Positions 1,159 to 24,536 are shown, counted from the stretch's first letter. The stretch: DNA of 36,222 bases from Planctomycetales bacterium (GCA_027449865.1 DAIDKV010000019.1:1-36222); one strand, 5' to 3'. Notes: generated from the letters alone by a model not told the origin. Numbers and translations: made by a program.

Positions 1159-1165
1159 TCGCTGC

Positions 1166-2796: not shown

Positions 2797-3309
2797 GCGA
2801 AGCGGCCCGGTTCGTCTCGATGCCGGTGGGCCAGGTCGCCGGCCTGGCCCTGGGCCTCGGGGACGCCCTGGGTCGGATCGCCCCGCCCGGCCGCCGTGTG
2901 CCCTCTCCGAACTGCCCGGACCATCTCGTCCCTCGCCCGCCATCACCTGGACCTCCGATCCCATCCTCAATTGGACCGCGCCGATTCGCGATCCTTTCTG
3001 GGATCTCATCATAACAGTTCCGGCGGATCGCCTGATCGCAGGACGCAAGGCCGGGCTTGACGGCTGGCGAGGATGAGGTACCTTACGCCTCGAAGTCGCG
3101 GACGGTCGATCAGGGACCGCGCGGCCTTCACCCATCTTGTGGATTGGATCGGCCAGGCGCCCCAGACCATGTCGAGACGGGCGAATCCGCCTGGTTTGAG
3201 CAGGCGAGCCGGATGATAGGGCGCGGGGTCTCGTGCGCCCGGACGGAGGAATAGGGCCTGGCGGCTTTCGTCCGTCAACGGCCTCGGTCTCCGCACGACG
3301 GAGGGATTG
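2797..3309. other. Intergenic region between divergent genes, no gene seen
   Basis: About 510 bases separate the TPR gene (minus) from the secreted Ig-like protein (plus). Reading frames are open on both strands, but their translations are Arg/Pro/Gly-rich without domain patterns, as expected of GC-rich non-coding DNA. I see no tRNA, clear promoter or terminator. The only functional element is the ribosome-binding site GGAGGG at 3300-3305, which belongs to the downstream gene. Confidence 0.5.
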
Positions 3310-4653
3310 ATGTCGTCTCTGGTTAGACCAAGGGGTCGGGACTCTCGGCCAGGCCGTGCCTCGGCGCGCCGCGAAATGGAGGTTCTGGAATCCCGGGCCT
3401 TGCTCAGCACGACCACGACGAGCAATCTCTTCGGCGCCCCGACCACCCCGGCGACCCCGACGGGCCTGCCGACGGTTCTCAATCTCAAGTCGGTCGCCTC
3501 GCTGGCCGAGGCCGGACAGCCAATTCCGTTGGTTGCCAGCGTGGGGCCCAGCGGAAATGCAAAGCAGTTGAAGGCGTCGATTGGTCAGGCCATCTCAGGC
3601 ACGATTGAGATCTACACAATCACGCCCAGGCATACCCTGCTCGGAAGCATCGCGATCAACAAGGGGGCGAGCAGCTCGAACAATTCGTTCCTCACAGCGC
3701 TCAGCTCCAGTTTCGGCGTGAACCCAGTTGGTTCGGGAAGCATCAACAACACGGCCTTTCTGACCACGACGAAGCTTCAGACCGTCGGCCAGACTGAGGT
3801 CCAGGCGAAGTTCATTCCCTCGAATTCGATCTACAGAGCCAGCACTTCGGACATCAAACTCCTGACGATCACGGCAAGGACGCGGAACGCCCCCACAAGC
3901 ACGACCCTGATCGCACCGACCAGCAACATCGAGGCGGGGGCGGCCATCTCCTTCACGGTCAACGTGCATAATGCGGATAGTAACCTCACAAGTGGCCACG
4001 TGCAGCTCGTGACGGTGGGCCCCCATCCGATTGTTCTGGGGCGAGACTCGATCGGGCTGTTTGACCGACCGGTCGGTTTCGCGACCAGCAAGCTTAGGGT
4101 GGGCACCTACGAGGTCGAGGCGGTCTTCACGGCGGGGACGAACCGGTTTGCCTCCAGCACCTCCGCGCCGGTGATGATTACCGTGACGCCGCTCTCAGCC
4201 GTCTCGTTCCGGGTGAAGCCCATTCGGCCCTATGGCTACATGGGCCAGCCGCAGAGCTTCGACGTGACCGCGCTGGGAGCCAACGGGAAGGCACTGCCGA
4301 CCTACACCGGGACCGTCGGCTTTTCCAGCCCGACCGATTCGTGGACCATCCTTCCGCCGAACGTCTACAAGGAACTTCAGATCGCGCAGCCCGTGAACAA
4401 CGCCCCCTGGCTCGCGACCTTCTCACCCGGGGTCTACACCTTCACTCCGGCCGATCACGGGACGCATCGCTTTAACGGCGCTGTCACGTTCAACAAGGGG
4501 GGGATGAACAGCCTGGTCGTCACCCAGACGAACGATCCGGAGGTCACCGGGAGCACGATCATCGCGACCGCGCCCCGGACCCAGCCGAAGAAGGGCCACA
4601 CCGGGTATTATCCTCCCTACGGCTTCATCGATCTTCGCCAGAAGAAGAGTTGA
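3310..4653 (+). CDS. Secreted Ig-like repeat protein with LEPR-XLL-type N-terminus
   Basis: A 447-residue, Thr/Ser/Ala-rich protein. The N-terminus is basic and carries EVLESRALLS, a variant of the planctomycete LEPR-x-LLS motif found at the start of many large extracellular proteins, where it is thought to mark an export or surface-sorting region. The body contains beta-rich segments resembling bacterial Ig-like (Big) repeats: about residues 193-290, with SNIEAGAAISFTVNV and GTYEVEAVFTAGTNRF typical of such domains, and a further one from about 295 to 415 ending in PADHGTHRFNGAVTF. No enzymatic motif is visible. A likely role is in the cell surface or matrix. ATG 3310 is preferred over the adjacent TTG at 3307 because GGAGGG at 3300-3305 leaves a better spacing. 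It stands alone. Confidence 0.75.
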   Translation: MSSLVRPRGRDSRPGRASARREMEVLESRALLSTTTTSNLFGAPTTPATPTGLPTVLNLKSVASLAEAGQPIPLVASVGPSGNAKQLKASIGQAISGTIEIYTITPRHTLLGSIAINKGASSSNNSFLTALSSSFGVNPVGSGSINNTAFLTTTKLQTVGQTEVQAKFIPSNSIYRASTSDIKLLTITARTRNAPTSTTLIAPTSNIEAGAAISFTVNVHNADSNLTSGHVQLVTVGPHPIVLGRDSIGLFDRPVGFATSKLRVGTYEVEAVFTAGTNRFASSTSAPVMITVTPLSAVSFRVKPIRPYGYMGQPQSFDVTALGANGKALPTYTGTVGFSSPTDSWTILPPNVYKELQIAQPVNNAPWLATFSPGVYTFTPADHGTHRFNGAVTFNKGGMNSLVVTQTNDPEVTGSTIIATAPRTQPKKGHTGYYPPYGFIDLRQKKS

Positions 4654-4939: not shown

Positions 4940-7690
4940 ATGCCGTCGACCGTCGCCGAGCCCCCCCTCCCGATCGAGGAGGCTGAGGCCTTCGAGACCC
5001 TGCTGGTCCGCGCCCGGAAGCGTACTGGCAAGATCCCGCCCGAGGTGCTGGTTCGGCATGTCCTGGCGATCGTTCCGGCGAGCGAATGGCCCGTGCGCGT
5101 GGAGGCGCTCGACGCGCTCTTCCGTCGGCTGGACGCCTCCCACGAGGATCGGCTCCGGATCGAGACACGCCCGCCCGATGGCCGGATGCTTGGGCTCTGG
5201 GCGACACGAAGGCCCGGCTCGGGCGCCCGGCCCTACCGAACCGTCCTCGTCGGCATCGACCCGATCGGCGCTCGCTGCGACTGCCCCGACTTTCTTCGGA
5301 ACTCGCTGGGTCTTTGCAAGCACGCGCTGACGGTGCTGGAGCATGTTCACGCGCGTCCCCGGCTGCTCCAGCACGCGGTCAAGGAACAGGAGTGGGGCGA
5401 CCCGCCTGGACGAGAGGGTCTCTGGTGGGACCCGATCCGGCCGCTCACCGGGGTCGGTGACTGGATGGTCCGCCTCTCCTGGCGAGGCAAGACCGAACCG
5501 GTGGCCGCTCGATCGGCTCGAGCCGCCCAGGCCCTGCAATGGTTTCAGCCAACGGCCCGCGACGGCTGGGCAATTCTCAAAAACGCCCACCTTGACGATC
5601 CGAAGCGCCGGCTTGCGATCGTGGACGATCTGCTGAAGGTGATTCCTCCGGGAGCTTCGGGGATCCGACACGATTCGGCCGTGCGCGCCCTTCTCGTCCG
5701 CGAGCGGCAGCGGCTTGGGTTGATCGTCGACCAGGCCCTCGCGGCGGCTGAGATCCGACAGGGATTGCGGTCGCTGAAGCGGCCCCTGTATCCCTACCAG
5801 GAGGAAGGCGTTCGACGTTTCCTCGCCGAGGGCCGGTTGCTGCTCGCTGACGACATGGGCCTCGGCAAAACGGCGCAGGCGATCGCCGCCAGCGCTGTTC
5901 TCTGGAAGAGCGGACGCGTTCGACGCGGGCTCCTGATCACGCCCGCGAGCCTCAAGCCCCAGTGGGCCCGCGAGTGGGCCACCTTTTCCGAACTACCAAT
6001 CGAGATCGTCGACGGCACGCCCGATGCCCGACAGGCCCTCTATGCCTCGCGCAAGGAAGGCTTTCTCATCATCAATTATGAGCAATTGCTCCGCGATCTG
6101 GAAATTGTCCGCGGTTGGGATCCCGATCTTGTCGTGCTCGACGAGGCCCAAAGGATCAAGAACTGGGCGACCAAGACGGCCCTATCGGTCAAGGGGCTGA
6201 CGCCGAAATATCGGCTTGTCCTGACGGGGACGCCGATGGAGAACCGGATCGACGAACTGGCCTCGGTGGTCGAGTGGGTCGACGACATGGCGCTCGAGCC
6301 GAAGTGGCGGTTGAGCGCGTTTCACGCGATCCGCGAGGATGGCCGGGTCGAGATGGTTGGCGTTCGGCACCTGGGGACGATTCGGGATCGGCTCCGGCAC
6401 TGCATGCTCCGCCGGATCCGCCGCGATGTCCTCGACCAGCTTCCGCCGCGTACAGACACGCGCGTTCCTGTCGAGATGACCGAGGTCCAGCGCCGGCAGC
6501 ACGATTCGCTCGATCAGCCCATCATCATGCTGATGCAGAAGGCGATGCTCCGGCCACTTACACAGGCCGAGTTTCTTCGGCTCATGAGCCTTCTAACGAT
6601 CCAGCGGATTATTTGCAACGGGATCGCTCAGCTTCAGTTCGAGGAGATCTGGCCGACACTCCGCGATCGGAGACCGGATGACTCGGCACTCCAGGGACTG
6701 GCGACGCCGAAGCTCATCGAGCTTCGGCAGCTTGTCCAGCAGGTGGTGATCGGCCAGGGGCGCAGGGTGGTGATCTTCAGTCAGTGGCGCCGGATGCTCA
6801 ATCTGGCGAACTGGGCTGTCCGCGATCTTCTGGAGGAGAACGGCCTTCGCGCCGGCTTCTTCACCGGCGCCGAGAACAGCCGGCGGCGGACTCAGAACAT
6901 CGTCGAATTTCATGACGATCCCTCGTTCCGAATCCTATTCTCGAGTGATGCGGGCGGGGTTGGGCTAAACCTTCAGCGTGCCGCGAATTGTGTGATCAAT
7001 CTCGATCTGCCCTGGAACCCGGCCGTGCTGGAGCAGCGGATTGGGCGGGTGTACCGACTGGGGCAGAAGACGCCGATTGATGTCTATAATCTCGTCAGCG
7101 AGCAGGGGATCGAGTCGCGGATTTCGGTTTTGGTGGATACGAAGCAGGCGTTCTTCAAGGGGCTTTTCGACGGGGATACGGAGACGGTTCGATTTGGTGA
7201 GGCGTCGGGATTCCTGGCGAGGATGCAGAAGCTGATCGACCCATCGGCGATCGCGGTGATCGCGGCGAGGGGCGGCCAGGCGGAGGCGGAGGCCGATCGA
7301 GATGGTCCCGACGCCGACATCGACCTCGATGACGCGGCGGAGGATTCGCTCGGCGAACTGATCGACGCGGCCGATGAGTCGGACGACGACGAGGTTCCGG
7401 AGGCTGAGGCCGTGATCGAGCCGTCATCGACGGCTCTCGAGGTGACGGTCCCCGAGCCGCAACGATCGGAGGCGACGTCTGGTCACGACGGCGAAGGGCG
7501 ACCCTCCTTGCCGTCGCCGGCCAGCGTCCGCGAGCTGTTTTCACGGCTGGAGGTTCGGCGTGAGCCGGCCTCGGGGAAGGTCGTGATCGAGGCGCCGGCC
7601 GAGGTCGCTGGGGAACTTGGAGCGCTCTTCGAGGGCATGGCTTCCCTCTTGCAGAGTTTCGCTCGTCCGGGCTCGGGTTCGTCGACTTAG
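4940..7690 (+). CDS. SWIM zinc-finger SNF2-family helicase
   Basis: A 916-residue cytoplasmic SWI2/SNF2 ATPase, predicted to translocate on double-stranded DNA or remodel protein-DNA complexes. Domain order: an N-terminal SWIM zinc finger (C113, C115, C126, H128), a linker, the SNF2 N-terminal ATPase lobe with Walker A DDMGLGKT (304-311), Walker B DEAQ (401-404) and TGTPMENR (429-436), the helicase C lobe with GGVGLNLQ and QRIGRVYRLGQ (699-709), then an acidic tail around 785-830 and a final helical segment. The Walker B box is DEAQ where most SNF2 proteins have DEAH. Neither neighbour is related to DNA metabolism, so the gene appears to be a single transcription unit. No convincing Shine-Dalgarno precedes the ATG, but coding character starts there. 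Confidence 0.9.
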   Translation: MPSTVAEPPLPIEEAEAFETLLVRARKRTGKIPPEVLVRHVLAIVPASEWPVRVEALDALFRRLDASHEDRLRIETRPPDGRMLGLWATRRPGSGARPYRTVLVGIDPIGARCDCPDFLRNSLGLCKHALTVLEHVHARPRLLQHAVKEQEWGDPPGREGLWWDPIRPLTGVGDWMVRLSWRGKTEPVAARSARAAQALQWFQPTARDGWAILKNAHLDDPKRRLAIVDDLLKVIPPGASGIRHDSAVRALLVRERQRLGLIVDQALAAAEIRQGLRSLKRPLYPYQEEGVRRFLAEGRLLLADDMGLGKTAQAIAASAVLWKSGRVRRGLLITPASLKPQWAREWATFSELPIEIVDGTPDARQALYASRKEGFLIINYEQLLRDLEIVRGWDPDLVVLDEAQRIKNWATKTALSVKGLTPKYRLVLTGTPMENRIDELASVVEWVDDMALEPKWRLSAFHAIREDGRVEMVGVRHLGTIRDRLRHCMLRRIRRDVLDQLPPRTDTRVPVEMTEVQRRQHDSLDQPIIMLMQKAMLRPLTQAEFLRLMSLLTIQRIICNGIAQLQFEEIWPTLRDRRPDDSALQGLATPKLIELRQLVQQVVIGQGRRVVIFSQWRRMLNLANWAVRDLLEENGLRAGFFTGAENSRRRTQNIVEFHDDPSFRILFSSDAGGVGLNLQRAANCVINLDLPWNPAVLEQRIGRVYRLGQKTPIDVYNLVSEQGIESRISVLVDTKQAFFKGLFDGDTETVRFGEASGFLARMQKLIDPSAIAVIAARGGQAEAEADRDGPDADIDLDDAAEDSLGELIDAADESDDDEVPEAEAVIEPSSTALEVTVPEPQRSEATSGHDGEGRPSLPSPASVRELFSRLEVRREPASGKVVIEAPAEVAGELGALFEGMASLLQSFARPGSGSST

Positions 7691-11217: not shown

Positions 11218-11798
11218 GCAAACCCTCTGCCTCGCTCGATACACTTCTGGAGAAGCTTGCGACAGGGGATATCGAGGCGGCCGAGCGTGTCTTTCGCGAA
11301 TATGAGCCGTTCCTTCGATCAATGGTCCGGCGTCGGCTTACGCCGTTGCTCCGCAGTAAATTCGACTCCATGGACGTGGTTCAATCGGTCTGGGCCGATG
11401 TCCTCGAAGGCTATCGAGCGGAGGGCTGGCGATTCGCCGATCAGGCGCACCTCCGGGCCTTCCTCGCCCGGGTCACTTACAACCATTTCGCGACGCAATG
11501 CCGGCGCCATCGGACAGCGCTTGAGCATGAACGCCCGATCTACGAGGATGAGTCGCCGCCTGAGCCGGCCTCAGCCCAGCCTCGGCCCAGCCAGCTTGCT
11601 CAGGCGCGTGAGATGTGGGATCTTCTGATGGATCTCTGCCCGCCCGCGCACCGCCAGATCCTCGAAATGAAGGGGCAAGGGGCCTCGCTTTCGGAGATTG
11701 CCGAGCGGACGGGGTTTCATGAGTCGAGTGTCCGCCGCATCCTTTACGAGCTGGCGAAGAAGCTGGCCGCCGCTCGTCAGCGATCTGCCGAGGGCTGA
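11214..11798 (+). CDS. ECF-type RNA polymerase sigma factor (kinase-associated)
   Basis: A 194-residue sigma-70 family factor with region 2 (about residues 25-95, including FDSMDVVQSVWADVL) and region 4 (about 140-188, with a helix-turn-helix SLSEIAERTGFHESSVRRIL), joined by a Pro-rich linker. It would direct RNA polymerase to a specific promoter set. Its start is fused to the preceding membrane-protein gene through ATGA, and the Ser/Thr kinase gene begins 25 bases after its stop. ECF factors encoded next to a Ser/Thr kinase form known planctomycete groups, in which the kinase is thought to control the sigma factor by phosphorylation. The ATG at 11214 lacks a strong ribosome-binding site, consistent with translational coupling. 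Confidence 0.9.
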   Translation: MSKPSASLDTLLEKLATGDIEAAERVFREYEPFLRSMVRRRLTPLLRSKFDSMDVVQSVWADVLEGYRAEGWRFADQAHLRAFLARVTYNHFATQCRRHRTALEHERPIYEDESPPEPASAQPRPSQLAQAREMWDLLMDLCPPAHRQILEMKGQGASLSEIAERTGFHESSVRRILYELAKKLAAARQRSAEG

Positions 11799-11823
11799 GG
11801 CTCCATCCGAACGAGGCCACCGC

Positions 11824-14322
11824 ATGTCGATCGACACGATGCGCCCGGCCAGTTCGCTGGCGACCCGACAGGTCGACGAGATGGTCGCCGCCTGGCGACG
11901 CGGCGAGCGGCCGACCGTTGAGGAGATCCTTGCCCGCCATCCTGAGCTGGATGACGATGCGAGGATCCGGCTGATCTACGAGGAATATAGCCTGCGTCAG
12001 GAGGCGGGCCTCGAGGTCGATGCGGAAGAGATCGTGCGTCGGTTCCCCCGGTATCGAGACGAGCTGGCCCTCCTGTTCGACTGCCATCGCCTGCTCGAAT
12101 CCGCCCCGGCGCGTGTGGAGTATCCACGCATCGGCGAGGTGCTCGCTGGCTTCCGGCTGATCGGCGAACTGGGGCGAGGAGCGGCCGGCCGGGTCTACCT
12201 GGCGGCTCAGCCCTCGCTCGGCGACCGTCCGGTTGTGCTGAAAGTCACGCGACGCGGGCGTGACGAGCATCTCTCGCTGGCAAGGCTCCAGCATATGAAT
12301 ATTGTGCCACTTTATTCGGAGCACGCGATTCCCGCCCGGGGTTTACAGGCCCTCTGCATGCCCTATCTGGGAGGAACGACGCTCGCCCAGGTTCTCGAAG
12401 CGATTGAGGACCGACCGGCCGCCGAGCGGACGGGCGCTGAAATTGTCGAGGTGCTCGACCGATCCAGCCGGCGCCGGGAGTCGGCGTCGGCGGTGGTCGG
12501 ACCCTACCGCCGATATCTGACGCGGGTTTCATACGTGGAGGCCATCGTCTCGATCGGTGCGGCGCTGGCGGACGGGCTGCATCACGCCCACGAGCGAGAG
12601 CTGGTCCACATGGACGTCAAGCCGTCGAACGTTCTGCTTGCCGACGACGGCCAACCGATGCTTCTGGACTTTCACCTGGCGCGCGGACCGATCGACCCGG
12701 ACCGGCCGCCGCCGGAGTGGATGGGCGGGACGCTGGAATTCATGTCGCCCGAGCATCGCCGGGCGATGTCGGCCGTTCGGGCGGGCCAGCCAATCCGCGA
12801 TGCGGTCGACGCGCGTGCCGACATCTACTCGCTGGGAATGCTCCTTTACGTTGCGCTGGGAGGGCCGGTGCCTGACCCTCCCGAGTCGCCGACGAAGGCG
12901 CTCCATCGTTGTAATCCGAAGGTCTCGCTGGGCCTATCCGATATCGTTGGCAAGTGCCTCGCGGATGATCCGAGCGACCGATATCCCGACGCGTCGTCGG
13001 TCGCACTCGACCTTCGACGGCACCTCGCCGACCTTCCGCTTCGGGGTGTTCCGAACCGAAGTTGTCTCGAGCAATGGCGGAAGTGGAGGCGGAGGCATCC
13101 CTCGCCCTTCTCGCGAAGGGGGCTCGCCGCCACGATCCTGGTCGCGGCGATCGCCGCCCCCGCCTCGATGATGGCGATCACCTACAACGAGCGACGTGGG
13201 GTCGCCTCGGTAGCTCTCACGCGAGGTCTTGATGAGCTGAAACGGAATCGATACGCCGAGGCCCGATCGATGCTACGCGGGGGTCTCGCCGCGATCGAAG
13301 GATTGCCAGGACTCGATGGACGCCGACGCGAGCTAACCTCGGCCCTCGACCGGGTCGCAAGAGCCGCGCGAGTGGCCGAGTTGCATGACCTGGCCGAGTC
13401 GATCCAGTTTCGATATGGCCTCTCGCCGCCGCCGGCCGACGAGGCGCCCGCGCTGATCCGGCTCGGTCGAGAGGCCTGGGAGGCCCGGCGATCGCTGCTC
13501 GAAGGGATTGAGGCGAATGGCGACTCCAGGGCTGCACGACGCCTTCGCAACGATCTCCGTGATCTTGGCATGCTCCGCGCTGACCTGCTTGTCCGATATG
13601 CCGCACCCGGGGATCATGATCGGGCCACGCGTGAAGCCGACCGATTACTCTCGGAAGTGCTGAGCGAGCTTGGCCCGAGCGCGGCCATCGAGCACGATCG
13701 TCGATCGTATACCGATGGCGGGGTGGGAATTCCCTCGGAACGGGTCGAGCCCCGGACGGCCCGAGATCATTATGACCTGGGGCGATCGTACCTCCGATCC
13801 GGCCGACCGGACCTCGCCGCGGAGGAGTTTCAGCGTGGCCTGAGGCTCCGCCCGCAGGACTTCTGGCTGAACTTCTACGACGGCCTCTGTACCTATCGCC
13901 TGGGCCAGTTTGACCGGGCCGAGGGTGCATTTCGGACCTGTGTCGCCCTCGCGCCCAGTTCGGCCGAATGCTACTATAACCGTGCTCTGGCGCTTCAGTC
14001 GCTTGGACGACTCGACGAGGCGATCGAGGACGACGGCGCGGCCCTGAAGCGCAACCCTCGGCTGGTCGATGCGCTTCTGAACCGGGGCGTTCTCCACTTT
14101 CGGAAGGGTCGGCCTGAGGAGGCACTGACCGACCTCGATGCCGCGATGGGGCTGGCATCAGACTCCCGCGCCCGACGTGTGCTGCGGTACAATCGGGCGT
14201 TGGTGCATCAGGTCCGCGGCAACCTCGACGCCGCGATCACCGACGCCCGCGCGGCCGTTGAACTCGGTCATCCCGAGGCCCACGACCTGCTCCGTCGGCT
14301 GGAGCAAGGGCAGAGTCCATAG
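11824..14322 (+). CDS. Transmembrane Ser/Thr protein kinase with C-terminal TPRs
   Basis: An 832-residue Hanks-type kinase. Residues 1-100 are a helical N-terminal region; the kinase domain runs about 107-405 with glycine loop ELGRGAAGRVYLA, ATP lysine K140 (VVLKV), catalytic loop HMDVKPSN (D264, N269), DFH (282-284) in place of DFG, and SPE at 308-310. About 45 residues with an unusual Arg-rich insert (near 200-230) separate the N- and C-lobes. A membrane segment follows at about 434-454, then a helical linker and four TPR-like repeats at about 647-825. The core catalytic residues are kept, so it is probably active despite HRD becoming HMD and DFG becoming DFH. It presumably senses a signal outside through the TPR part and acts on the adjacent ECF factor. 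GAGG at 11813-11816 serves the ATG at 11824. Confidence 0.92.
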   Translation: MSIDTMRPASSLATRQVDEMVAAWRRGERPTVEEILARHPELDDDARIRLIYEEYSLRQEAGLEVDAEEIVRRFPRYRDELALLFDCHRLLESAPARVEYPRIGEVLAGFRLIGELGRGAAGRVYLAAQPSLGDRPVVLKVTRRGRDEHLSLARLQHMNIVPLYSEHAIPARGLQALCMPYLGGTTLAQVLEAIEDRPAAERTGAEIVEVLDRSSRRRESASAVVGPYRRYLTRVSYVEAIVSIGAALADGLHHAHERELVHMDVKPSNVLLADDGQPMLLDFHLARGPIDPDRPPPEWMGGTLEFMSPEHRRAMSAVRAGQPIRDAVDARADIYSLGMLLYVALGGPVPDPPESPTKALHRCNPKVSLGLSDIVGKCLADDPSDRYPDASSVALDLRRHLADLPLRGVPNRSCLEQWRKWRRRHPSPFSRRGLAATILVAAIAAPASMMAITYNERRGVASVALTRGLDELKRNRYAEARSMLRGGLAAIEGLPGLDGRRRELTSALDRVARAARVAELHDLAESIQFRYGLSPPPADEAPALIRLGREAWEARRSLLEGIEANGDSRAARRLRNDLRDLGMLRADLLVRYAAPGDHDRATREADRLLSEVLSELGPSAAIEHDRRSYTDGGVGIPSERVEPRTARDHYDLGRSYLRSGRPDLAAEEFQRGLRLRPQDFWLNFYDGLCTYRLGQFDRAEGAFRTCVALAPSSAECYYNRALALQSLGRLDEAIEDDGAALKRNPRLVDALLNRGVLHFRKGRPEEALTDLDAAMGLASDSRARRVLRYNRALVHQVRGNLDAAITDARAAVELGHPEAHDLLRRLEQGQSP

Positions 14323-14422
14323 CCGGAGTGGGCGCCCGTTTCGACGGGAGGGGGCCGACTGGTCCCAGGTAGAGATGAGGTCCACCCGAAGAACCTCGAC
14401 CTCGAGGCTCGGTTACGATTTC

Positions 14423-16747
14423 TCAAACAGATCGAACTTCCTGCTCCAGCCGATCGGGCGACCATGCGCCCTCGTGGAGTGAGAACAGCGGGCGACTTCG
14501 GAACGGCTTTCCTTCGAGTGTCGGCGCCATGTCAGGCCATCGGCCGACAAAGCTGCCGGCCGTCGCACCTTTTCGGCCCGGAATCCAGTGTGGGATCGCG
14601 CCTTCGGTCGAGAACCAGTCGGCCACCCGATCGACGTCCTGCTGGCTCTCCAACCGGCCGACGAGTTTCGTGCTGCAATTCCCGAAGACGTTGTAGTCAA
14701 CCGATCGAGGACTCTGCGTGCAGATCAGCCCCGCGACGCCGTACTTCCGCCCCTGCGTGAAGAGCCGGATCATGGGCAGCTTGGCGGGGGGCTTTGACGT
14801 CCCCGCCGGGATGAAGTCGCGGGCCTCGTCTAGGTAGAAGAGCAGTCGCAATCGAACATTCGCCGGGGCACTGGTCGTGACCATCCATCGGTAGACCTCG
14901 GCCGCCAGACCGGCCGCGAAGAAATGTTTGGAATGATCGTCCGCGAGAGCGTTCAGATAAATCACATTCAGCGGAACTTTCCCTGGCGTCTCGGAACGGG
15001 TCATGGCGTCGAGGTCAAGCCGGGTCCCGCCCACGAAGAGGGCCGACGTCGGCCCGAGCCGCATCGCGTGGAGTTTCCGAGCCATCCGCTCACGCTCGGT
15101 CTTTTTTATGAGACGGTCGGGATCATCCAGGCCGATCGATTCCGGCTCACTAATGGCATTCGCGATTCGCTCCAGGGTGACGTCCTGGCCCTGGCCGTTA
15201 GACGTCAACCGGCGGAAGACCTCCATCAGGAAAGTCTGCTGCGAGTCAGTCTCGCCGCCGAGCCGAGCCAGGCCGACAAGTTGCGACGCCGCGACGCCGA
15301 GCATGTCCTGCCACTCTTCCTCACGCCGGGTGAGGTCGTCGAGGTCGCGCAGGTCGTCGAGGCCCGGGAGGCGGATGGGATCGAGACTGAGCCGACGGCC
15401 GTGCGAGGAGCCTGGCGTCCAGATCCGGGGCTCCACTTTCGCGAGGAAATCGCGCCGGGCTTCGCGATCCGCCGCCGACATCTCGGCCCGCTCGGGAGAT
15501 GTTCGGAGGAACTGGACCAGGTCACCTTGCGGGTCGATCGCCAGCACGGGGACACCCCGCCGTACGGCCTCCTCGGCGATCACCTTCGCCAGCCAGGTTT
15601 TGCCGCTCCCCGCGGCGCCGACGACCGCGAGATGGGTCGGCATCGCCGCGATCCCGATGAGGACAGGCAAGCCCGACTCCGCCGTCCCGATCCTTAAGCG
15701 ATCGGTCTCCGTCCGTTCGTCCACAACATCGTCGACCGTCGGCTCAACCTCGAGAGCCCAGGAGTGCGAGGGTCCGGCCGCCTGGCGAGTTTCCACGGCG
15801 GGCTCGGCCTCGACGGCGCTGGTCCAGTGTCGTAGCCGGGTTCCCTCGTGCTTGGGACCCAGTCGTTTCAGGCACTCGCCGTCCCGATCCCACTTGCAAT
15901 GCGGGCACCACGAGGGCTCGCCCGGCGGTCGAAGGCCCGATTGGTGGACCTCGTCGTACTCGGCCCAACCAGCCATCGAGGCCAGAAGGTTGTAGAGCCG
16001 GTGTCGTCTCTCGTGAACCTCCTCCCACGTCAATTCGACCATCCTGCGCTCGGGGTGCAGGTACAGCACGCCGACATCGGGCGTTGTTCCGTGCTGAACG
16101 TTGTGCATCAGGGCGTAGAGGGCGACCTGGAAGAGGTCGTTGGAGGGATCGTCGGCCGGCGTGAGTTTGTAGTCAAGGATCCGATGATGGGCCGTCCGCC
16201 AGTCGTAGAAGACGTAGTCGAGCGTCCCCGTGACGCGGACCGGCTCGCCCTTCGGCCCGACCTGGAAGGTCACGTCAACCCGCCTTCGACGATCCCCGAA
16301 GAGGTGATCGATCACCTCCTCCGCGGGTTTGCCCCGGGAACGGGCGTCGGCGACGATCTCGGCCAGCTCACCCATGTAGATCGCGACAGCCCGAATAAAC
16401 GCCTGCTGCTGCTCGGCCGATTTCCGAGCGAGAAGATCGAGGTTGACGCACTTCTGATTCAAGGAGGCGCGCAGGGATTGTTCGATGGCACGTGCGTCGA
16501 GTTCGGTCTCGATGGTGGTACGGACCTGGTCGGCATCGAGTGCCTGGCGGTTGAACGACTCGATGGTGTTGTGGAACATCGATCCGCAGGCTGTTCCCGA
16601 GTCGCTGGCCTTCCAGAGCCGAGTGACTGCGCGGCGCTTGAGCCGGTTTCGGCGTGTGAGGTCGGCGTCGAAGTAGGTGATCCGCGGGCAGGTGGCAGCC
16701 ACGCGGACCTCCGTCACGCTGAACCTTGCCGGCGGCATGACGATCAT
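14423..16747 (-). CDS. Cas4/RecB-like nuclease fused to a HerA-like ATPase
   Basis: A 774-residue fusion. Residues 1 to about 300 form a PD-(D/E)XK nuclease of the RecB/Cas4 type: GSMFH with H59, GTLDYV with D177, the DYK motif at 192-194, and Q207 in FQVALYA. C20 together with C281, C284 and C292 matches the four-cysteine arrangement that holds an iron-sulphur cluster in Cas4 and AddB. From about 350 to 774 lies a HerA/FtsK-class ATPase with Walker A GAAGSGKT (377-384), a strand ending AIDPQGDL, and Walker B LLFYLDE (635-641). HerA proteins pump double-stranded DNA and are usually paired with a separate nuclease; here both are one chain. It is the last gene of a three-gene operon, overlapping the ATPase gene by 4 bases (ATGA). 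The function as a DNA-cleaving motor is inferred. Confidence 0.85.
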   Translation of the reverse strand: MIVMPPARFSVTEVRVAATCPRITYFDADLTRRNRLKRRAVTRLWKASDSGTACGSMFHNTIESFNRQALDADQVRTTIETELDARAIEQSLRASLNQKCVNLDLLARKSAEQQQAFIRAVAIYMGELAEIVADARSRGKPAEEVIDHLFGDRRRRVDVTFQVGPKGEPVRVTGTLDYVFYDWRTAHHRILDYKLTPADDPSNDLFQVALYALMHNVQHGTTPDVGVLYLHPERRMVELTWEEVHERRHRLYNLLASMAGWAEYDEVHQSGLRPPGEPSWCPHCKWDRDGECLKRLGPKHEGTRLRHWTSAVEAEPAVETRQAAGPSHSWALEVEPTVDDVVDERTETDRLRIGTAESGLPVLIGIAAMPTHLAVVGAAGSGKTWLAKVIAEEAVRRGVPVLAIDPQGDLVQFLRTSPERAEMSAADREARRDFLAKVEPRIWTPGSSHGRRLSLDPIRLPGLDDLRDLDDLTRREEEWQDMLGVAASQLVGLARLGGETDSQQTFLMEVFRRLTSNGQGQDVTLERIANAISEPESIGLDDPDRLIKKTERERMARKLHAMRLGPTSALFVGGTRLDLDAMTRSETPGKVPLNVIYLNALADDHSKHFFAAGLAAEVYRWMVTTSAPANVRLRLLFYLDEARDFIPAGTSKPPAKLPMIRLFTQGRKYGVAGLICTQSPRSVDYNVFGNCSTKLVGRLESQQDVDRVADWFSTEGAIPHWIPGRKGATAGSFVGRWPDMAPTLEGKPFRSRPLFSLHEGAWSPDRLEQEVRSV

Positions 16748-18981
16748 TTCCTCAGCAGAAGGAAGAGGTCGGTGTCATGGGGGGTGGCGTGGATCAGCCC
16801 TTCAGCATGCATCCGCCCGCCGATTTCCTTGAATGCCTTCCAGACCGCCTCGACCAGAGGTTTCGGTTCGGGGATCTCCTCGGCGAAACCTCGCGCTAGC
16901 GCCTCGGCGGTTGAGCCCATCCGCCAGGCGAGCTGGGCCATGATGTACTGTCGGACCCGGGTTTCGTCGAACGCGATGGAAGGCGGGACAATCCTTGAAG
17001 GGACGGCTGGATCCTCGGTCAGCAACGGACGGAGCAGGGGATGCTCTCGAAATCGGTCGCGGCGGTGATGAGACGCCACAACCTCGGCCTCGGTAACGCT
17101 CTGGATCGTTCCCCGACTCGCCTCGATTTCGAGGTCTCCCGAGCGGGCCATCCCGATCACGTTCTGAAGGGCGTCGAGGCGGGCATACTGTTCGAAGTCG
17201 AGCTTCAGATGCTCGAATTTCCCGGGATCGAGTCGTTCGAGCTCGCGATAGTATTCCGAGCCCTGGGCCCCGACCTTCAACGGGCGACGTTCCTCGTCGG
17301 TGGCAAGCAATCGATGCTCGGGTGCTGGATCGACCTCGAGCATTCGTCGCATCGATTCCGTTGCGGAGCGACCGACGTTGGTCACAAACGTCAGGCCCGT
17401 CCGAACCTCGCGGCCATCGGAATTCCTGCGTTCGAGGACCATCAGATCAAACGCTGGCAGACGCCCGTTCTTCTTCTTGAGCCGGTCGAGGCCGCGGAAG
17501 GTGTAGGGCCGTCCGTCGCCCTTGCAACAGGCCAGGAGCGACTCGACCAGCCCCGCGAGATTCCCCGCGTCGGGCGGTAAGCTCCCTGGTTGAAGTCGAA
17601 GCAGGGCCACATGCTCCTCGATCTTGCGGTCGACTGCCGCATCGATCAGAGCGTCGATGTCGGGCGTTGTCTCGTCCCGAGCCGGACTATGAACTGGCCG
17701 GACCACACGTTCGATGCCGGCGGTGCCCCCGATCGCCGCGATTGTTTCGCGGCCCTCTTCCCAGGCGTCGCGTGCCCAGTTGAGCACTTCACGAGCCTTG
17801 AATTCCAGGCCATCGCCGAATCGGTTCTCCAGCCATTCGCGACTGAGAGGAAAAAGGGTATCGGATTGAACGCGGAGGCGGACCGACTCCAGTTCAAGGA
17901 ATGGTTCGAGGAACCGCTCCAGCCGAGCCTCGAGGATCTGCCGAGCCTCCGACCGCTTCAGACGATGTAGCTCGACAACCCGATCCGCGATCCGGTCCCA
18001 CGCGGCCTCGGGGATGACGAAGTCTTCGCGATAGGCGAGGAGAGTCTGCTTCACACCGCAGGTGATCACGAGCAGGTTGGAGACGCGATCAAGCATCGCG
18101 TGGAGGAACCGGCAGAACGGCGTGACCTTCTCAGGATCGAGGTTTTCAAACTGATCGATGCAGAGAACCAGCGGTTGCTCACTCACCCGCGCCAGTTCGG
18201 CCAGCGCGTGGAGAACACTCTTGACCTGCTCGTCGTCGGCGAGCATGACCGGCTCCTGCTCGTCGACGGCAAGACCGAGTTGGGCGGCGAGACCTGGATC
18301 GACCTCGTCCCCGGAGAGCCAGGCCAGCGCCGCTCCGGCGAGGAGCCGGCGCCTTGGATCGTCGGCCCTGTCCGGCCGGGCGAACCGCCAAAACTGAAGG
18401 AGAGTGACGAAGGTCGGCCGAATCTCCGCGGATCGGACGAAGTGGGAGAGATAGGCATCGACCGCGAGCTGAAGCTGATCCTCGATCCGATCGACTGTAA
18501 TCCCCGAGACCCCCAGCGCATGGCGGATGGCCCGATCGAGGAAGCCGAAAAGCGGCGTTCGGCTCAGCGGCCCCTGACCGCCATTCGAAAGTCGACTCAC
18601 GACATACTTCAAAAGGTATCGCGGGAGCCGATCGGGATCGGCCAGAATATTGTGCAGGTAAACATAACAGGCGCGTGGACCGCCGCCTGGGCCGGTTTCA
18701 GAAGCCCACCGATAGAGACGGGAGAGCAGGTGACTCTTTCCAATCCCCGCGCCGCCGAGAAGGGCGACGCCGATCCCGGTCCTCGCACGCATTGCCTCGG
18801 AGGCGAGCGAGACAAGCCGGTCAAATGCATCGGCGTGGATTGAAGCAACGTCGACATCGTACGGAGAAGGCTCGGTTACTCGGTTGGAGGCAAATGGGTT
18901 CTCGTCGCGGACGGCGGCGAGGTAGCGATCGAGTCCGGGCACTTCCGCGGTGGACCTGAGCTTTGTGGATTTGGCCGGCAT
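16744..18981 (-). CDS. P-loop ATPase of an operon with the nuclease-HerA fusion
   Basis: A 745-residue protein with an AAA/STAND-like NTPase domain at about 45-410: Walker A GGAGIGKS (76-83) and Walker B LVLCIDQFENLD (271-282), followed by a sensor-like strand LLVITCG at 303-309. A leading segment DENPFASNRV resembles the region before the P-loop of ORC/Cdc6-like ATPases. The second half, from about 430, has alternating strands and helices (FDLMVLERRN, GLTFVTNVG, RLLATDEERRPLKVG) that could be a degenerate nuclease-like or partner-binding domain. The C-terminus (about 665-745) looks like a winged helix. No membrane segment is present. It is the middle gene: 5 bases after the upstream gene and a 4-base overlap with the downstream nuclease. 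The specific family was not recognised; a loader or sensor role in DNA handling is inferred. Confidence 0.8.
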   Translation of the reverse strand: MPAKSTKLRSTAEVPGLDRYLAAVRDENPFASNRVTEPSPYDVDVASIHADAFDRLVSLASEAMRARTGIGVALLGGAGIGKSHLLSRLYRWASETGPGGGPRACYVYLHNILADPDRLPRYLLKYVVSRLSNGGQGPLSRTPLFGFLDRAIRHALGVSGITVDRIEDQLQLAVDAYLSHFVRSAEIRPTFVTLLQFWRFARPDRADDPRRRLLAGAALAWLSGDEVDPGLAAQLGLAVDEQEPVMLADDEQVKSVLHALAELARVSEQPLVLCIDQFENLDPEKVTPFCRFLHAMLDRVSNLLVITCGVKQTLLAYREDFVIPEAAWDRIADRVVELHRLKRSEARQILEARLERFLEPFLELESVRLRVQSDTLFPLSREWLENRFGDGLEFKAREVLNWARDAWEEGRETIAAIGGTAGIERVVRPVHSPARDETTPDIDALIDAAVDRKIEEHVALLRLQPGSLPPDAGNLAGLVESLLACCKGDGRPYTFRGLDRLKKKNGRLPAFDLMVLERRNSDGREVRTGLTFVTNVGRSATESMRRMLEVDPAPEHRLLATDEERRPLKVGAQGSEYYRELERLDPGKFEHLKLDFEQYARLDALQNVIGMARSGDLEIEASRGTIQSVTEAEVVASHHRRDRFREHPLLRPLLTEDPAVPSRIVPPSIAFDETRVRQYIMAQLAWRMGSTAEALARGFAEEIPEPKPLVEAVWKAFKEIGGRMHAEGLIHATPHDTDLFLLLRK

Positions 18982-18986
18982 GGGGG

Positions 18987-20078
18987 TTATCTCCGCGATG
19001 CATAGACCAGCAGCGAGCCTGCCTCTCTCACGCCCGCCTCGCGTTCTGTCTCGCTAAGTGTTCCATGTAGGCCCTCATGGCTATCCAGCGAGAAATCGCC
19101 CGCCATCCGAAGTTCTCTCAGTCCCGCATCGAACTCCTCGCGGCGGAATTCCGAGAGTAACTGGCGAAGGTCGGCCAGCTTGACGAAGTTGGTCAAACCA
19201 TTCCGACGATCCAGGATATCGAACGCCTCCCGGAACGCGCCCACGAAATCGCCAGGCGCGTAGGTCTGGCCGTCGGACGCCGTCGGCGGCTCGTCGAGGA
19301 GCAACATCGACGACTCGGTTTCGTCTGAGTTGGAGGGCGAAGAATGGGTCGGCCGCAGGTGCTCCGAGAGGAAGAGCAGCGGCTCTCCCTTGACGATCAC
19401 CCAGGAGATTCCGGCCGGACACCTTTTCTTCTCCGCGATGGCCCGCGCCGCCTTCTCCAGCTGGGCCTGCAACGCGGGGACAAGCCGCCTGGAGAGCTCC
19501 TTCGGGGTGAAGGCCATCGTCTCGACCAGTTTCTTCTTCACGGTCTTATTGATGGGGCTCAGTACGAAGTGAAGCAGAGCGCCGAGGGCCCTGTCCTCCA
19601 CGTCGTCCCTGAAAACCACCGGCGCATCGAGCCCCTTCTTCGTGGCCACGATCGCCCGATCGGCCATCGGCGAGACGGAGGCAGCCTTGCGCAGGAGCTT
19701 CTCCGAACCCTTCTCGTGGCAGAGTCCGGCAAGCTGGCGAAGGCTCGGCGGATACGACGAGGTGCCGAGGCGGGCCTGCTGCTCGAGAACGGCGAGCATG
19801 TGCTGCGAGAGTTCATCCTCGGGTCTCGGTTCCTCGCCCCGGAAGTAGACTCGTCCGTCGAGGGCTGGCTTGCCGGCCACCTTTCGGACGACGACCGCCC
19901 GTTCGGTGAACGGCTTTCTGGTCGCCGCCTTGACGATCAACTCGGGCGAGACTGCGCCGTCGCTCATCTCGCCGAGTTCTTGCAACGTCGGGTGGCCATC
20001 GAAGGTCCGTCGCGATTCCAGGACCCGAATCATCTCTCCGGCGAGTTCCACCGCCGGGTCGATCTTCCTCTTGCTCAT
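18987..20078 (-). CDS. Duplicated winged-helix-like protein, first gene of the nuclease operon
   Basis: A 363-residue protein of unrecognised family. Two similar modules are visible in the N-terminal half, about residues 15-78 and 92-157: each runs from an ML/MI-x-VLE helix through a second helix (LQELGEM / LRQLAGL) and a third (ELIVKAA / EKLLRKAA) to a basic strand ending VYF or VVF. That pattern suits winged helix-turn-helix folds. The C-terminal 90 residues form another likely winged helix (FREAFDILDRRNGLTNFVKL ... SLLVYASRR). The middle part contains a Lys/Arg-rich helix. This suggests a DNA-binding subunit, perhaps target recognition or control. AGAGGG lies seven to eight bases before the ATG at 20078, and the ATPase gene begins 5 bases after its stop, so the three genes form one operon. 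Confidence 0.75.
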   Translation of the reverse strand: MSKRKIDPAVELAGEMIRVLESRRTFDGHPTLQELGEMSDGAVSPELIVKAATRKPFTERAVVVRKVAGKPALDGRVYFRGEEPRPEDELSQHMLAVLEQQARLGTSSYPPSLRQLAGLCHEKGSEKLLRKAASVSPMADRAIVATKKGLDAPVVFRDDVEDRALGALLHFVLSPINKTVKKKLVETMAFTPKELSRRLVPALQAQLEKAARAIAEKKRCPAGISWVIVKGEPLLFLSEHLRPTHSSPSNSDETESSMLLLDEPPTASDGQTYAPGDFVGAFREAFDILDRRNGLTNFVKLADLRQLLSEFRREEFDAGLRELRMAGDFSLDSHEGLHGTLSETEREAGVREAGSLLVYASRR

Positions 20079-20237: not shown

Positions 20238-23200
20238 CTATGGATTCGACCCGGCGAATTTCCAACCGGGTGCATGATCAGCGGCAAGCGGCTCTCCGGT
20301 GAGCGAAGCCCGGATCATCTCGATCGGGATCGCATTCTCCTTCAGCACGGCGTCGTGGAAATCGCGGTCCGTCATCCGACCCGACTCAACCAGTTCACGA
20401 TGCAAGGCCCGTAGTTGCATTCCGCCGAGCAAGTATGCGGCCTGATAAAGTGGGCCGTACGAGCCGTTGAACGATCGTCGGACCTCGGCCGTCGCATTGT
20501 CTCGTTCATGGCCGACCCGGTTTACCAGTAGCTCAATGCACTCCTTTGGTGTCATCGTGCCGAGGTGGAAACTCAGTGAAAAAATGATTCGGGCGCACCG
20601 ATGCATTCTCCAGAAGAGCATTCCCACTCGATTCTCGGGCGATTTCGCGAAGCCGCGATCCCAGAGCAGGAGCTCCCAGTAAAGCGACCACCCCTCGACC
20701 AGAAACGGCGTACGGAAAAGTTGACGGTACGGGCGATATCGGGCCGCCATGAAGCCTTGCAGGTGATGTCCGGGGATCACCTCGTGATGCACGGTCGCCC
20801 TGGCGAAGTGCCGGTTATTTCCTCGGAGACTCATCATCTTCGCATCATGGGGCATGGTGTTTGTGGGATATGAGACGATGATTGTCTCGCCACCCAGGAA
20901 GAATGGGTTCACGAGTTGTGCCTCGGGTGACATCATTGTCATCCGCCAGGATTCCCTGCAGAGCGGTGGAATGGTGACGAGACTGTTCGCGTCGAGGTAC
21001 GCGATGGCTTCCCTCGCGAGGTCGCGAATCATCGTGGGCTGCTCGCCGGGAGCCACGTGATCGTCCTTCACCCGCTCGAGTGCGGCGTGCCAGTCGTCGC
21101 CCAGACCCATCTCGCGCGCGGCCTTCTTCATTTCGGTTTCGCACCAGTCGAGTTCCTTACGGGCGAGCGAGATGAGCTCCTCGGGAGTGTAGGGAATCAT
21201 CTCATTCCGCAATTCGACGAGGAGCGCCTCGCGGCCGATCGGTGTGCCGATGATTTCCTCGTCGCGACGATCTGCCGAACGAGTGGATGGGGAGTTCGGC
21301 GAGTTGCTGCTTCTCGAACTGCCCCGGCGTCGCCCGCCTATTTCCCGGCCCACGCCCGCTGTCGAGGCCCCGAACCGGTCGCGCAGGGACGTGGCGTAAA
21401 GTTCGATCGCACGATCAACCGCTCGATACGGCTCCTGCATCCACCAGGAAAAGACAGGATCATATCCATCGTAGAACCCGAACCAGGTTTGAAGCGTTTC
21501 TCGGAGCGACTCGACCTCTGCTAGTGCCCGGTTCGCCGATCGGAGCCGGGCTGCGCGGTCCTTGACGGTTGCGTCCTTGTCATTCGGTGCGGAATTGAGA
21601 GCGCTCCGGGCCGCCTCAATCTTCCTGGAGAGGTCGTGGAGTCTTCCGGCGGTCTTGCCCCAATCCATCCGCCGAAGCTCTCGACGAGAGGCGTCGAGGT
21701 CCAGGATTGGCCTCACGAACGGGACCAGTTTCTCCCAGTCACTGCGCTCGCGGTTGAGGATCTCCAGTCGTCCCCGCTCGTGCTCGAGGTGGTTGCGGAA
21801 GAGCAGGTAATCGATCCGACCGGCCTGACCCAGACGGTCAAAATCATACGCCTTGAGACGGTCGAACCATTCTTCGTTGAAGTGTTTCAACCGGGCCTCT
21901 CGCTCCAGGGACCCAGGAGCCGGAGCCGATCGGAGGAGCAGTCCGCGATCGACCTCGTAGCGTTCGATTGCGGGTCGGAGTTCGCTCTCGTCTGCCGCGA
22001 GATCAGTTGGAGCGGGTTTCTCGGCCCTCGTCGGAGCTTGCTCCTCGAGCAGATGTCGGACGAAGAACTCGCGTAGCCGGCGTTCACCGTAGGGGCCGCC
22101 CATCCCGTGGCCGGCGTTGGGGACGACCAGCATCTCGAAATCCTTGCCGGCCTTCACCAGGGCGTCGACCAGCCGAAGCGTCGACTCGGGCGGGACGTTC
22201 GTATCCATCTCGCCGACGATGAGCAGAAGTTTCCCCTTCAATCGATACGCATTGTGGATGTTGGACGACGCGGAGTACCAGGGACCGACCGGATAGCCCA
22301 TCCATTGCTCGTTCCATGAGGCTTTATCCATACGGTTGTCGTGGCAACCGCACCCCGCGACACCAACCTTGTAGAAGTCGGGGTGGAAGAGCAGGCCGGC
22401 CGCGGCGTTCTGGCCGCCCGCCGAACCGCCGTAGATTCCCACTCGCGTGAGGTCGTAGCTCGGGTGTTTTTTCGCCACTGCCTGGTGCCAGAGGATGCGG
22501 TCGGGAAAGCCGGCGTCCTTCAGGTTGTGCCAGCAGATGTCGTGGAACGACTTCGACCGGTTGGCTGTGCCCATCCCGTCGATCTGCACGACAATGAAGC
22601 CCAGGTCGCAAAGCGACGAGTATCGGAGTGCCGGCGTAAACGACTTCGGTACGAACGAACCCTGCGGGCCGGCGTAGATGGATTCGATCACAGGATATTT
22701 TCGAGACGGGTCGAAGTTTCTGGGCCGGCAGATGATCCCCCAGATGTCGGTCTTGCCGTCCCGACCCTTCGCCACGAAGACCTCAGGAGGCTTCCATCCG
22801 CTCGCCTCAAGCGCCGAGATGTCGGCTTGCTCAAACCGACCCATCAGAACTCCGTCATCGACACGACGAACCTCGTGGACCGGCGGCATGTCCACTCGAC
22901 TGTAGGTGTCGATCAGAAAGGCGCGATTCGGCGAGAATTGAACGCGATGGTCGCCATTTTCTGGTGTCAGCGAGACCAGCTTTGAGCCGTCGAGGCTCAC
23001 CCGGTAGTGATGGAGGAAGTAAGGATCCTGACCGGGTTCCTTCCCTCCGGCCTGGAACCAGATCTGCCGTTTCTCCTGATCGACGCGATCGATCCCGCGG
23101 ACGACCCACTCTCCGGTAGTAATCGCGTTTTTGACCGCGCCGGTGCGGGCATCGAGCAGATAGAGATGCCGCCATCCACTGCGCTCGGTCGCGTAAATCA

Positions 23201-24425
23201 GTTCATCGGTGGGATCGAGCCAGGTGATGGTGTCGAGCGGGACGTTCTCGCGATGGGTCGTCCAGATGAAGGTGTTCGACTTTTCATCGATGATCGTTGT
23301 GGCCTCGCCATGACTCGCGTCCACTCGAATCAATCGATATCGCTGATGGCCACGGTCGATCTTCTCGTAAAAGAAGTGGCAGCCCTCACGGTCCCAGTGC
23401 AATTCGGGCTGGCCGTAGTCAATTCGATCGACGGCCGGACGAATGGCCTTCTGGGCGACCTCGAAGAGGTTCAATTCATACGATGTGAACCGATCTCCCG
23501 GAAGCGGATACGGCCGCGACCGAAGCCGTGCCCGACCGCCGCCGGGCGGAGACGACTGGATCAGATAGACCTCCTTGCGATCGCCAGGTTCGATTCGGAA
23601 CCCGATCAGCATCCTTGAATCCGGCGACCAGGAGAGCCGGCCGTAGGCGAGACCTTCCTTTCCGTCGTGAGTCAGGTCAATCACTTCCTTTTTCAGATGT
23701 GAGACCAGTGTGATGTTATGATCCTTCACGAGTGCCGTCCACTGGCCGTCGGGCGATCGGACGCCATCGGACGGCGAGGGCCAGTCGGGGCCCTGCGGAG
23801 GCGAGAGCACGGGCCCACGCCCGGGACGGTGCGTTGGCCGCGCGATCGGCCGGGCCTCACGCTCGATCGCGACGCACTCGTAATTGCTCAGGTTGTACGT
23901 CCAGTCGAGATCATCCGCCCGGAAATGAATCCACCATTTCTCGCTCCCATTCGTCCTGTCAACCGGGATAGGCCCGAGGATGCCCCCGATCTTCAATGAG
24001 ATGGTTCCGGGCCCTTCCAGGTATTCGAACTCGTCGAACGGAAGTCGATCGGACTCGACCTTTTTTTCGGTCGCTTTCGAGAGTGCTTCGGCGAGTCGGG
24101 CGTGGTCGAACGCCGGGGCCCGTGTCCCGCGCGGAGCATAAACCGAGACGAACTCTTTCTTCCCGTCGGCGAAGTCGTTGCGATACCAGAACCGGACGTC
24201 ACCGTCGTACCAGTGCGGCTCGATCCGGGTTTTGAAGACCATCCGATCGGCCGGTGAGCCCCGACGCTCGCGCAACTGCGGCGCCTGATACCAGGGATCT
24301 CCGGGCGGGATTCTGTATGTCTCGCCGCCGACGAGGTCTTCCTCCGCGACCGAGGGGCGTGCCACGCCCGACCAGACCAGGATCATCAGGGCGAATGTCG
24401 CGGTACGCAGTCGTTGCGCTTTCAT
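20238..24425 (-). CDS. Secreted S9 prolyl-oligopeptidase fused to a DUF885 peptidase-like domain
   Basis: A 1395-residue exported protein with a signal peptide at the N-terminus (QRLRTATFALMILVWSGVA). The first half is an S9 peptidase of the dipeptidyl-peptidase IV type: a beta-propeller to about 580 and an alpha/beta hydrolase domain with the nucleophile in YGGSAGGQ (S668), D741 in GEMDTNVPP and H773 in NAGHGMGG. From about 830 to 1380 is a DUF885 domain with the metal-binding-like motif HHEVIPGHH (H1214, E1215, H1220, H1221). A Ser/Arg-rich low-complexity stretch interrupts DUF885 near 1070-1100. The protein may combine serine- and metallo-peptidase activity in the periplasm. The ATG at 24425 begins the signal peptide; the in-frame ATG at 24521 would add 32 residues lying over the neighbouring terminator. 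The reading frame is continuous, so the fusion is genuine. Confidence 0.88.
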   Translation of the reverse strand: MKAQRLRTATFALMILVWSGVARPSVAEEDLVGGETYRIPPGDPWYQAPQLRERRGSPADRMVFKTRIEPHWYDGDVRFWYRNDFADGKKEFVSVYAPRGTRAPAFDHARLAEALSKATEKKVESDRLPFDEFEYLEGPGTISLKIGGILGPIPVDRTNGSEKWWIHFRADDLDWTYNLSNYECVAIEREARPIARPTHRPGRGPVLSPPQGPDWPSPSDGVRSPDGQWTALVKDHNITLVSHLKKEVIDLTHDGKEGLAYGRLSWSPDSRMLIGFRIEPGDRKEVYLIQSSPPGGGRARLRSRPYPLPGDRFTSYELNLFEVAQKAIRPAVDRIDYGQPELHWDREGCHFFYEKIDRGHQRYRLIRVDASHGEATTIIDEKSNTFIWTTHRENVPLDTITWLDPTDELIYATERSGWRHLYLLDARTGAVKNAITTGEWVVRGIDRVDQEKRQIWFQAGGKEPGQDPYFLHHYRVSLDGSKLVSLTPENGDHRVQFSPNRAFLIDTYSRVDMPPVHEVRRVDDGVLMGRFEQADISALEASGWKPPEVFVAKGRDGKTDIWGIICRPRNFDPSRKYPVIESIYAGPQGSFVPKSFTPALRYSSLCDLGFIVVQIDGMGTANRSKSFHDICWHNLKDAGFPDRILWHQAVAKKHPSYDLTRVGIYGGSAGGQNAAAGLLFHPDFYKVGVAGCGCHDNRMDKASWNEQWMGYPVGPWYSASSNIHNAYRLKGKLLLIVGEMDTNVPPESTLRLVDALVKAGKDFEMLVVPNAGHGMGGPYGERRLREFFVRHLLEEQAPTRAEKPAPTDLAADESELRPAIERYEVDRGLLLRSAPAPGSLEREARLKHFNEEWFDRLKAYDFDRLGQAGRIDYLLFRNHLEHERGRLEILNRERSDWEKLVPFVRPILDLDASRRELRRMDWGKTAGRLHDLSRKIEAARSALNSAPNDKDATVKDRAARLRSANRALAEVESLRETLQTWFGFYDGYDPVFSWWMQEPYRAVDRAIELYATSLRDRFGASTAGVGREIGGRRRGSSRSSNSPNSPSTRSADRRDEEIIGTPIGREALLVELRNEMIPYTPEELISLARKELDWCETEMKKAAREMGLGDDWHAALERVKDDHVAPGEQPTMIRDLAREAIAYLDANSLVTIPPLCRESWRMTMMSPEAQLVNPFFLGGETIIVSYPTNTMPHDAKMMSLRGNNRHFARATVHHEVIPGHHLQGFMAARYRPYRQLFRTPFLVEGWSLYWELLLWDRGFAKSPENRVGMLFWRMHRCARIIFSLSFHLGTMTPKECIELLVNRVGHERDNATAEVRRSFNGSYGPLYQAAYLLGGMQLRALHRELVESGRMTDRDFHDAVLKENAIPIEMIRASLTGEPLAADHAPGWKFAGSNP

Positions 24426-24484
24426 GGGGTTGTCTCGTGGTCGGAAGGGTCGGAAAGCATCGCAGTCCCTGGCTCTACCACAAT

Positions 24485-24519
24485 AAAAAAGCGGCGGCCG
24501 GTGCGAGACCGACCGCCGC
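24485..24519 (-). terminator. Intrinsic terminator behind the PVC cytochrome gene
   Basis: On the minus strand a GC-rich stem (24519-24508 with 24502-24491, eleven of twelve pairs formed, five-base loop) is followed at once by a run of six T and then ATTG. It lies 17 bases beyond the stop of the cytochrome gene that ends at 24537 and 60 bases before the start of the S9-DUF885 gene, so it separates these two same-strand genes into different transcription units. Confidence 0.85.
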
Positions 24520-24536
24520 ATCTGCTTCGAATGGGT

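Follow-up and report, generated by a model that had tools for sequence, protein, structure and literature searches.

Layout, coding evidence and surroundings of the operon

Do three closely packed genes of a Planctomycetales bacterium encode the parts of one DNA-handling machine and, if so, what does this machine act on? The genes, here called A, B and C, all lie on the minus strand of the stretch of DNA that was analysed (the window, 36,222 nucleotides). The initial annotation had described them as a three-gene operon with a 5-base gap between A and B and a 4-base overlap between B and C, and ORF calls confirmed these coordinates, giving lengths of 363, 745 and 774 amino acids, respectively:

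18987..20078, minus strand: gene A, multi-winged-helix protein, putative DNA-recognition subunit (ORF; AF2 model)
16744..18981, minus strand: gene B, predicted Orc/Cdc6-like AAA+ ATPase (ORF; AAA_16; AF2 pLDDT 79; Foldseek; VIA-align)
14423..16747, minus strand: gene C, PD-(D/E)XK nuclease fused to a HerA motor (ORF; Pfam; alignment)

A ribosome-binding-like stretch, GAGAGGG, is found 5' of the ATG of A. Chance does not account for the lengths of B and C: no ORF in 100 Markov-simulated windows exceeded 655 amino acids, and the longest per window had a median of 375. A, B and C are real genes evolving under purifying selection, with dN/dS values of 0.18, 0.16 and 0.13 (NG86, window against the congeneric locus L057).

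The neighbouring genes, initially taken for a kinase and an S9 peptidase unrelated to the operon, were confirmed as such by Pfam:

11698-14322: flanking kinase/TPR gene
20238-24521: flanking S9-peptidase/DUF885 gene

The latter is a single ORF of 1427 amino acids joining a DPPIV/S9 peptidase to DUF885, an unusual fusion with a long homologue in genome G002. The view of the operon as a self-contained cassette agrees with the comparison to G002, in which the downstream flank differs and, on the upstream S9-peptidase side, synteny is kept with additional genes interposed; the S9-peptidase flank is common to the window, G002 and G004. A scan of the window for defence genes near the operon found none, the neighbours being housekeeping or secreted enzymes and the SNF2 and kinase matches generic. 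The window is no defence island. At 4940-7690, some 7 kb away, the window has a SWIM-SNF2 helicase gene, and genes for a DEAD/DEAH helicase and a SWIM protein (positions 1-3456 of locus L119) stand beside a plasmid-borne relative described below. Their presence was taken for a probable coincidence, since such genes are absent from most other loci.

Domains and conserved residues of gene C

A Pfam search assigned residues 8-286 of C to PDDEXK_1 (E 5e-13) and the part from residue 352 on to the HerA domain DUF87 (E 1.3e-13) plus HerA_C. Two domains were delimited accordingly:

15872..16723, minus strand: nuclease domain of C, amino acids 9-292 (7-sequence alignment; PDDEXK_1 and Cas4 profile matches)
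14612..15697, minus strand: HerA ATPase domain of C, amino acids 351-712 (DUF87/HerA_C; solved HerA chains; alignment)

The residues H59, D177, D/E192-x-K194, Q207 and Y211 are kept in all seven aligned nuclease domains, which come from two phyla, residue 192 being an aspartate in the window. The same seven domains keep an N-terminal cysteine, C20, and three C-terminal ones, C281, C284 and C292. One N-terminal and three C-terminal cysteines are the pattern of iron-sulfur nucleases of the Cas4/AddB/Dna2 kind. Judged from these residues, the nuclease of C is of the Cas4/AddB type, and the four conserved cysteines probably form an iron-sulfur cluster. PADLOC profiles of Cas4 match the domain weakly, and the nuclease domain alone gave no significant match among PDB sequences. 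NurA found no match in C in the Pfam search, where the nuclease is PDDEXK_1. The distant members L130-L132 retain the catalytic residues and are devoid of the cysteines, so the design can do without the cluster.

In the HerA half, which is matched by solved HerA chains in a PDB search, the Walker A (377-385), Walker B (LDEA, 639-642) and TQSP (677-680) motifs are intact. The two lysines singled out in the initial annotation for mutation both fall in catalytic motifs of the alignment: K194 sits in the invariant D-Y-K and K383 in the Walker A sequence GAAGSGKTW. The nuclease looks active, its residues being intact, and would be expected to degrade DNA.

Predicted folds of genes B and A

B matches AAA_16 (E 2e-7, Pfam). 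In an AF2 model built from 14 sequences, with a mean pLDDT of 79, the AAA+ domain is followed by an alpha/beta domain (442-613) and, at the C-terminus, by a winged helix. The best Foldseek matches of this model are Cdc6 (E 1.5e-4) and Orc1 (E 3.4e-4) at a probability of 1.00, and VIA-align returned Z scores of 14.7 for TnsC, 14.1 for Orc1 and 14.1 for RdrA of the RADAR defence system. By fold, B is predicted to be an Orc/Cdc6-like AAA+ ATPase. The two parts that follow the AAA+ domain are:

17143..17658, minus strand: alpha/beta domain of B, amino acids 442-613, between the AAA+ lid and the C-terminal wHTH (secondary structure of the model; alignments)
16753..16965, minus strand: C-terminal winged helix of B, amino acids 673-743 (AF2 model, pLDDT mostly 78-92)

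In the AF2 model of whole B, the alpha/beta domain has the topology H-H-E-E-E-H-E-H-E-H, with the strand-helix order of the REase fold, and no (D/E)xK was seen in strand 3 in the aligned members. The domain may therefore be a catalytically dead, REase-like one, the REase identity being that of a predicted topology only.

A has no significant match to any family in Pfam, PADLOC or NCBIfam, and its sequence has none in the PDB. Its AF2 model (pLDDT 75.6, pTM 0.48) repeats a helix-helix-helix-strand-strand pattern four times, from which four winged helices are predicted, the last being the best supported:

18993..19247, minus strand: predicted C-terminal winged helix of A, amino acids 278-362 (hmmsearch 'Acdom'; VIA-align Z about 7-8)

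Foldseek with the whole model of A gave no match at E 0.001. Most VIA-align matches were to single winged helices (Z about 7-8), accompanied by loose multi-winged-helix matches to SelB and ESCRT-II. In most related loci, the C-terminal domain is found by hmmsearch ('Acdom') directly upstream of B or near it, and nothing argues more strongly for a joint function of A and B than this recurrence.

The composition proposed at first, a probable DNA-binding protein, an ATPase and a nuclease-HerA fusion, was borne out by PDDEXK_1 plus DUF87 in C, the AAA_16 ATPase B and the winged helices predicted for A by AF2. That reading had overlooked the iron-sulfur signature, the domain make-up of B and the plasmid-borne relative.

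Distribution and conserved gene order

Among 45 genomes of the family, 7 have the operon, as judged from highly similar copies of B. These are all five genomes of the window genus, one of another genus (G023), and G014, where a fragment of B at a contig end is followed by C. Across the phylum, the nuclease profile was found in 6 of 392 genomes, each time with a B-type ATPase adjacent or fused. Upstream, two of the six have a clear A-like gene; such a gene is weak in G083 and G400, likely in G244 by its similarity to G400, and was not called in G322. A scan of genome contigs yielded four close relatives, all of them planctomycete MAGs. A universally conserved core locus with a housekeeping role, the outcome that the initial annotation had named as speaking against its reading, is ruled out by this patchy spread.

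The same annotation had asked whether homologues keep their order in other genomes. The order A-B-C is found again in congeneric genomes, in a second genus and on a conjugative MOBQ plasmid from the cyanobacterium Pseudanabaena sp. PCC 7367 (L119), where B and C likewise overlap by 4 bases. The plasmid nuclease is conserved (2e-21), and the motor there is FtsK plus FtsK-alpha; E-values of the local scans for relatives were obtained on small sets of sequences and serve only to rank candidates.

Exchange of motors and nucleases among relatives

The motor is swapped among loci while the nuclease and B persist. The window genus uses HerA, L068 has a HerA that lies nearer to mad8, and the motor of L119 and L130 is FtsK with FtsK-alpha. 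At L129 (7153-12279), a single protein of 1708 amino acids comprises a B-type ATPase, two near-identical copies of the nuclease and HerA; its gene adjoins an A-like gene and a kinase-STAS gene. The commoner layout in planctomycetes consists of A, a B::HerA fusion and a gene for a DUF559 nuclease (L053, L101, L102, L114-L117). The fusions of this layout have about 1050-1120 amino acids, and in L054 the HerA part appears to be out of frame. The genome of the window itself carries at L060 (8380-12505, G000:C31) a B::HerA-type fusion of 1123 amino acids, and the next gene encodes Mrr_N and Mrr_cat domains; no A was recognised at this locus. A recognised conflict-system gene adjoins one relative only: at L130, a TOTE conflict-system gene (13248-16235; primase-helicase-PLD) lies beside the A-B-C operon with the FtsK motor.

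These loci bear on two alternative explanations. An ordinary chromosomal operon, whose three genes have some unrelated role and form no joint machine, would suit the unrelated neighbours in the window. It is very improbable, given that the genes keep their order and spacing in two phyla and that B is fused to motors in the sister loci, including the protein with two nuclease copies at L129. It is also unlikely, to a lesser degree, that the genes are a module for plasmid or replicon exclusion or maintenance (partition, dimer resolution or plasmid competition) with domesticated chromosomal copies. The relative on a conjugative plasmid, the Orc/TnsC-like ATPase and the FtsK motor variants argue for such a module; the lack of replication, partition or transposase genes in the window operon, the intact nuclease and the pairing of B-type relatives with other, restriction-type nucleases argue against it.

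Comparison with known systems

The initial annotation did not recognise the three-part set as a named system. This held only in part: the domain set fits the 'HerA/FtsK capture systems' that Rakesh, Aravind and Krishnan predicted computationally in 2024 (PMC10853773), and the kind of nuclease, together with its being fused to the motor, looks new against the main text of that paper. The gene neighbourhoods described there combine an Orc/CDC6 ATPase, whose C-terminal wHTH is preceded by an inserted, inactive REase, with an active REase, a HerA/FtsK and a wHTH; some add a protein with 2-4 wHTH domains related to DndG/SspB/FokI. The proposed role is to intercept invader DNA in segregation, transfer or packaging, a view restated in a 2026 paper (PMC12839542).

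As far as this description goes, the operon shares with capture systems the Orc/CDC6 ATPase with a domain before the C-terminal wHTH, the HerA/FtsK motor, the active-looking PD-(D/E)XK-type nuclease and the predicted multi-wHTH protein, as well as motors of several sources, including FtsK with FtsK-alpha. A particular kinship of A to DndG/SspB/FokI was not found in the fold searches with Foldseek and VIA-align. In its main text, the 2024 paper mentions two families of REase and one exonuclease; RecB, Cas4 and AddB do not occur there. The effector of the operon is of the RecB/Cas4/AddB type, has four conserved cysteines and is fused N-terminally to the motor. Judged against that main text, the Cas4/AddB-type nuclease and its motor fusion appear to be a variant new to the capture class. 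The operon is best taken as a variant within this class and not as a new class.

Membership in other systems was considered and rejected. DndFGH also combines a HerA/FtsK motor, a nuclease and a multi-wHTH protein (DndG), but A-C contain an Orc-like ATPase instead of the DndF kinase and lack SWI2/SNF2 and inactive methylase domains, and the match to DndH is weak and at the Walker A only. DUF4297-HerA and SIR2-HerA likewise pair a HerA motor with an effector enzyme, yet these are two-gene systems with another effector and without an Orc-like ATPase or a multi-wHTH protein, and neither SIR2 nor DUF4297 matched A, B or C in Pfam or PADLOC. As for MADS, no PADLOC profile matches the HerA half of C better than mad8, but only this motor matches: neither A nor B matched a mad component, the operon has no methylase, and the adjoining kinase matches mad6 among many generic kinase profiles. 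For the BREX-related capture system (BRC), no PglZ, DUF6079 or DUF4007 was found in A-C or among the Pfam matches of the further window genes scanned.

Three further loci were noted. Large plasmid proteins of Piscinibacter and Bacteroides (L120, L121) were tried as relatives; what they have in common with L068 is confined to its HerA part, and they seem to be components of other systems. Both loci consist of a kinase, a protein of 528-557 amino acids and a protein of 1845-1858 amino acids ending in a HerA domain, the Bacteroides locus being followed by PP2C and Fic genes and the Piscinibacter locus near Tn7-like transposition genes. At L061 (5556-12259), B and HerA parts are split by a transposase-like gene, and an A-like domain ends a longer upstream ORF; this locus looks like a disrupted copy of the capture type.

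HerA-NurA and AddAB, both of which serve housekeeping repair without an Orc-like loader, resemble the operon in coupling a motor to a nuclease, in AddB an iron-sulfur PD-(D/E)XK one. By analogy, C could resect DNA breaks, with A and B loading it. The likeness of a Cas4/AddB-type iron-sulfur nuclease with a HerA motor to end-resection enzymes, the stability of the operon in the genus and the purifying selection would all fit such a repair machine. It is nevertheless unlikely, because the genome already has an AddAB-like pair of its own (a UvrD-type helicase next to a C-terminal PDDEXK protein), the operon is sporadic, being missing from 38 of 45 family genomes, and the plasmid-borne relative has a different motor. 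Nor is there a NurA-like or recombination gene near the operon.

Proposed mechanism and significance

The probable explanation, in line with the defence role that the initial annotation had considered, is that A-B-C is an Orc/CDC6-coupled HerA/FtsK capture system that intercepts invading DNA, in a variant with a Cas4/AddB-type iron-sulfur nuclease-pump. This explanation is supported by the fit of the domain set to the published definition, the patchy distribution, the plasmid copy with its FtsK motor, the motor variants L130 and L068, the sister loci with DUF559 or Mrr nucleases, the TOTE gene beside L130, and the retention of all catalytic motifs at dN/dS values of about 0.13-0.18. With its several winged helices, A would recognise a site or intermediate in DNA that is characteristic of incoming elements. 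On that DNA, B, as suggested by its predicted fold, would assemble with ATP as a loader or scaffold, and then recruit the HerA ring of C around the duplex, a step supported by the B-motor fusions of the sister systems. HerA would then pump the DNA into the nuclease heads of the same polypeptide, whose intact residues suggest that it is degraded there.

Two sets of observations call for caution. The operon is stabler than many defence systems, and its presence in 5 of 5 genomes of the genus, its one syntenic flank and its housekeeping or secreted neighbours temper the defence reading. This reading is further tempered by searches with the window sequences as queries, which found no C homologues in viral contigs (pattern scan) or phages and no B homologues in plasmids.

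More tentatively, the operon might be a distinct, modification-independent immune machine, in which an Orc-like loader guided by A sets the iron-sulfur nuclease-pump on replicating or transferring foreign DNA, and pump and nuclease are exchanged as invaders change. No modification gene is present in the operon.

As far as the literature was found, HerA/FtsK capture systems are so far computational predictions. With a compact three-gene version, its close and distant relatives and its catalytic residues named, the Orc-like loading of a DNA pump becomes testable. A Cas4/AddB-type nuclease with interchangeable pumps would be built from parts common to defence, repair and plasmid machinery.
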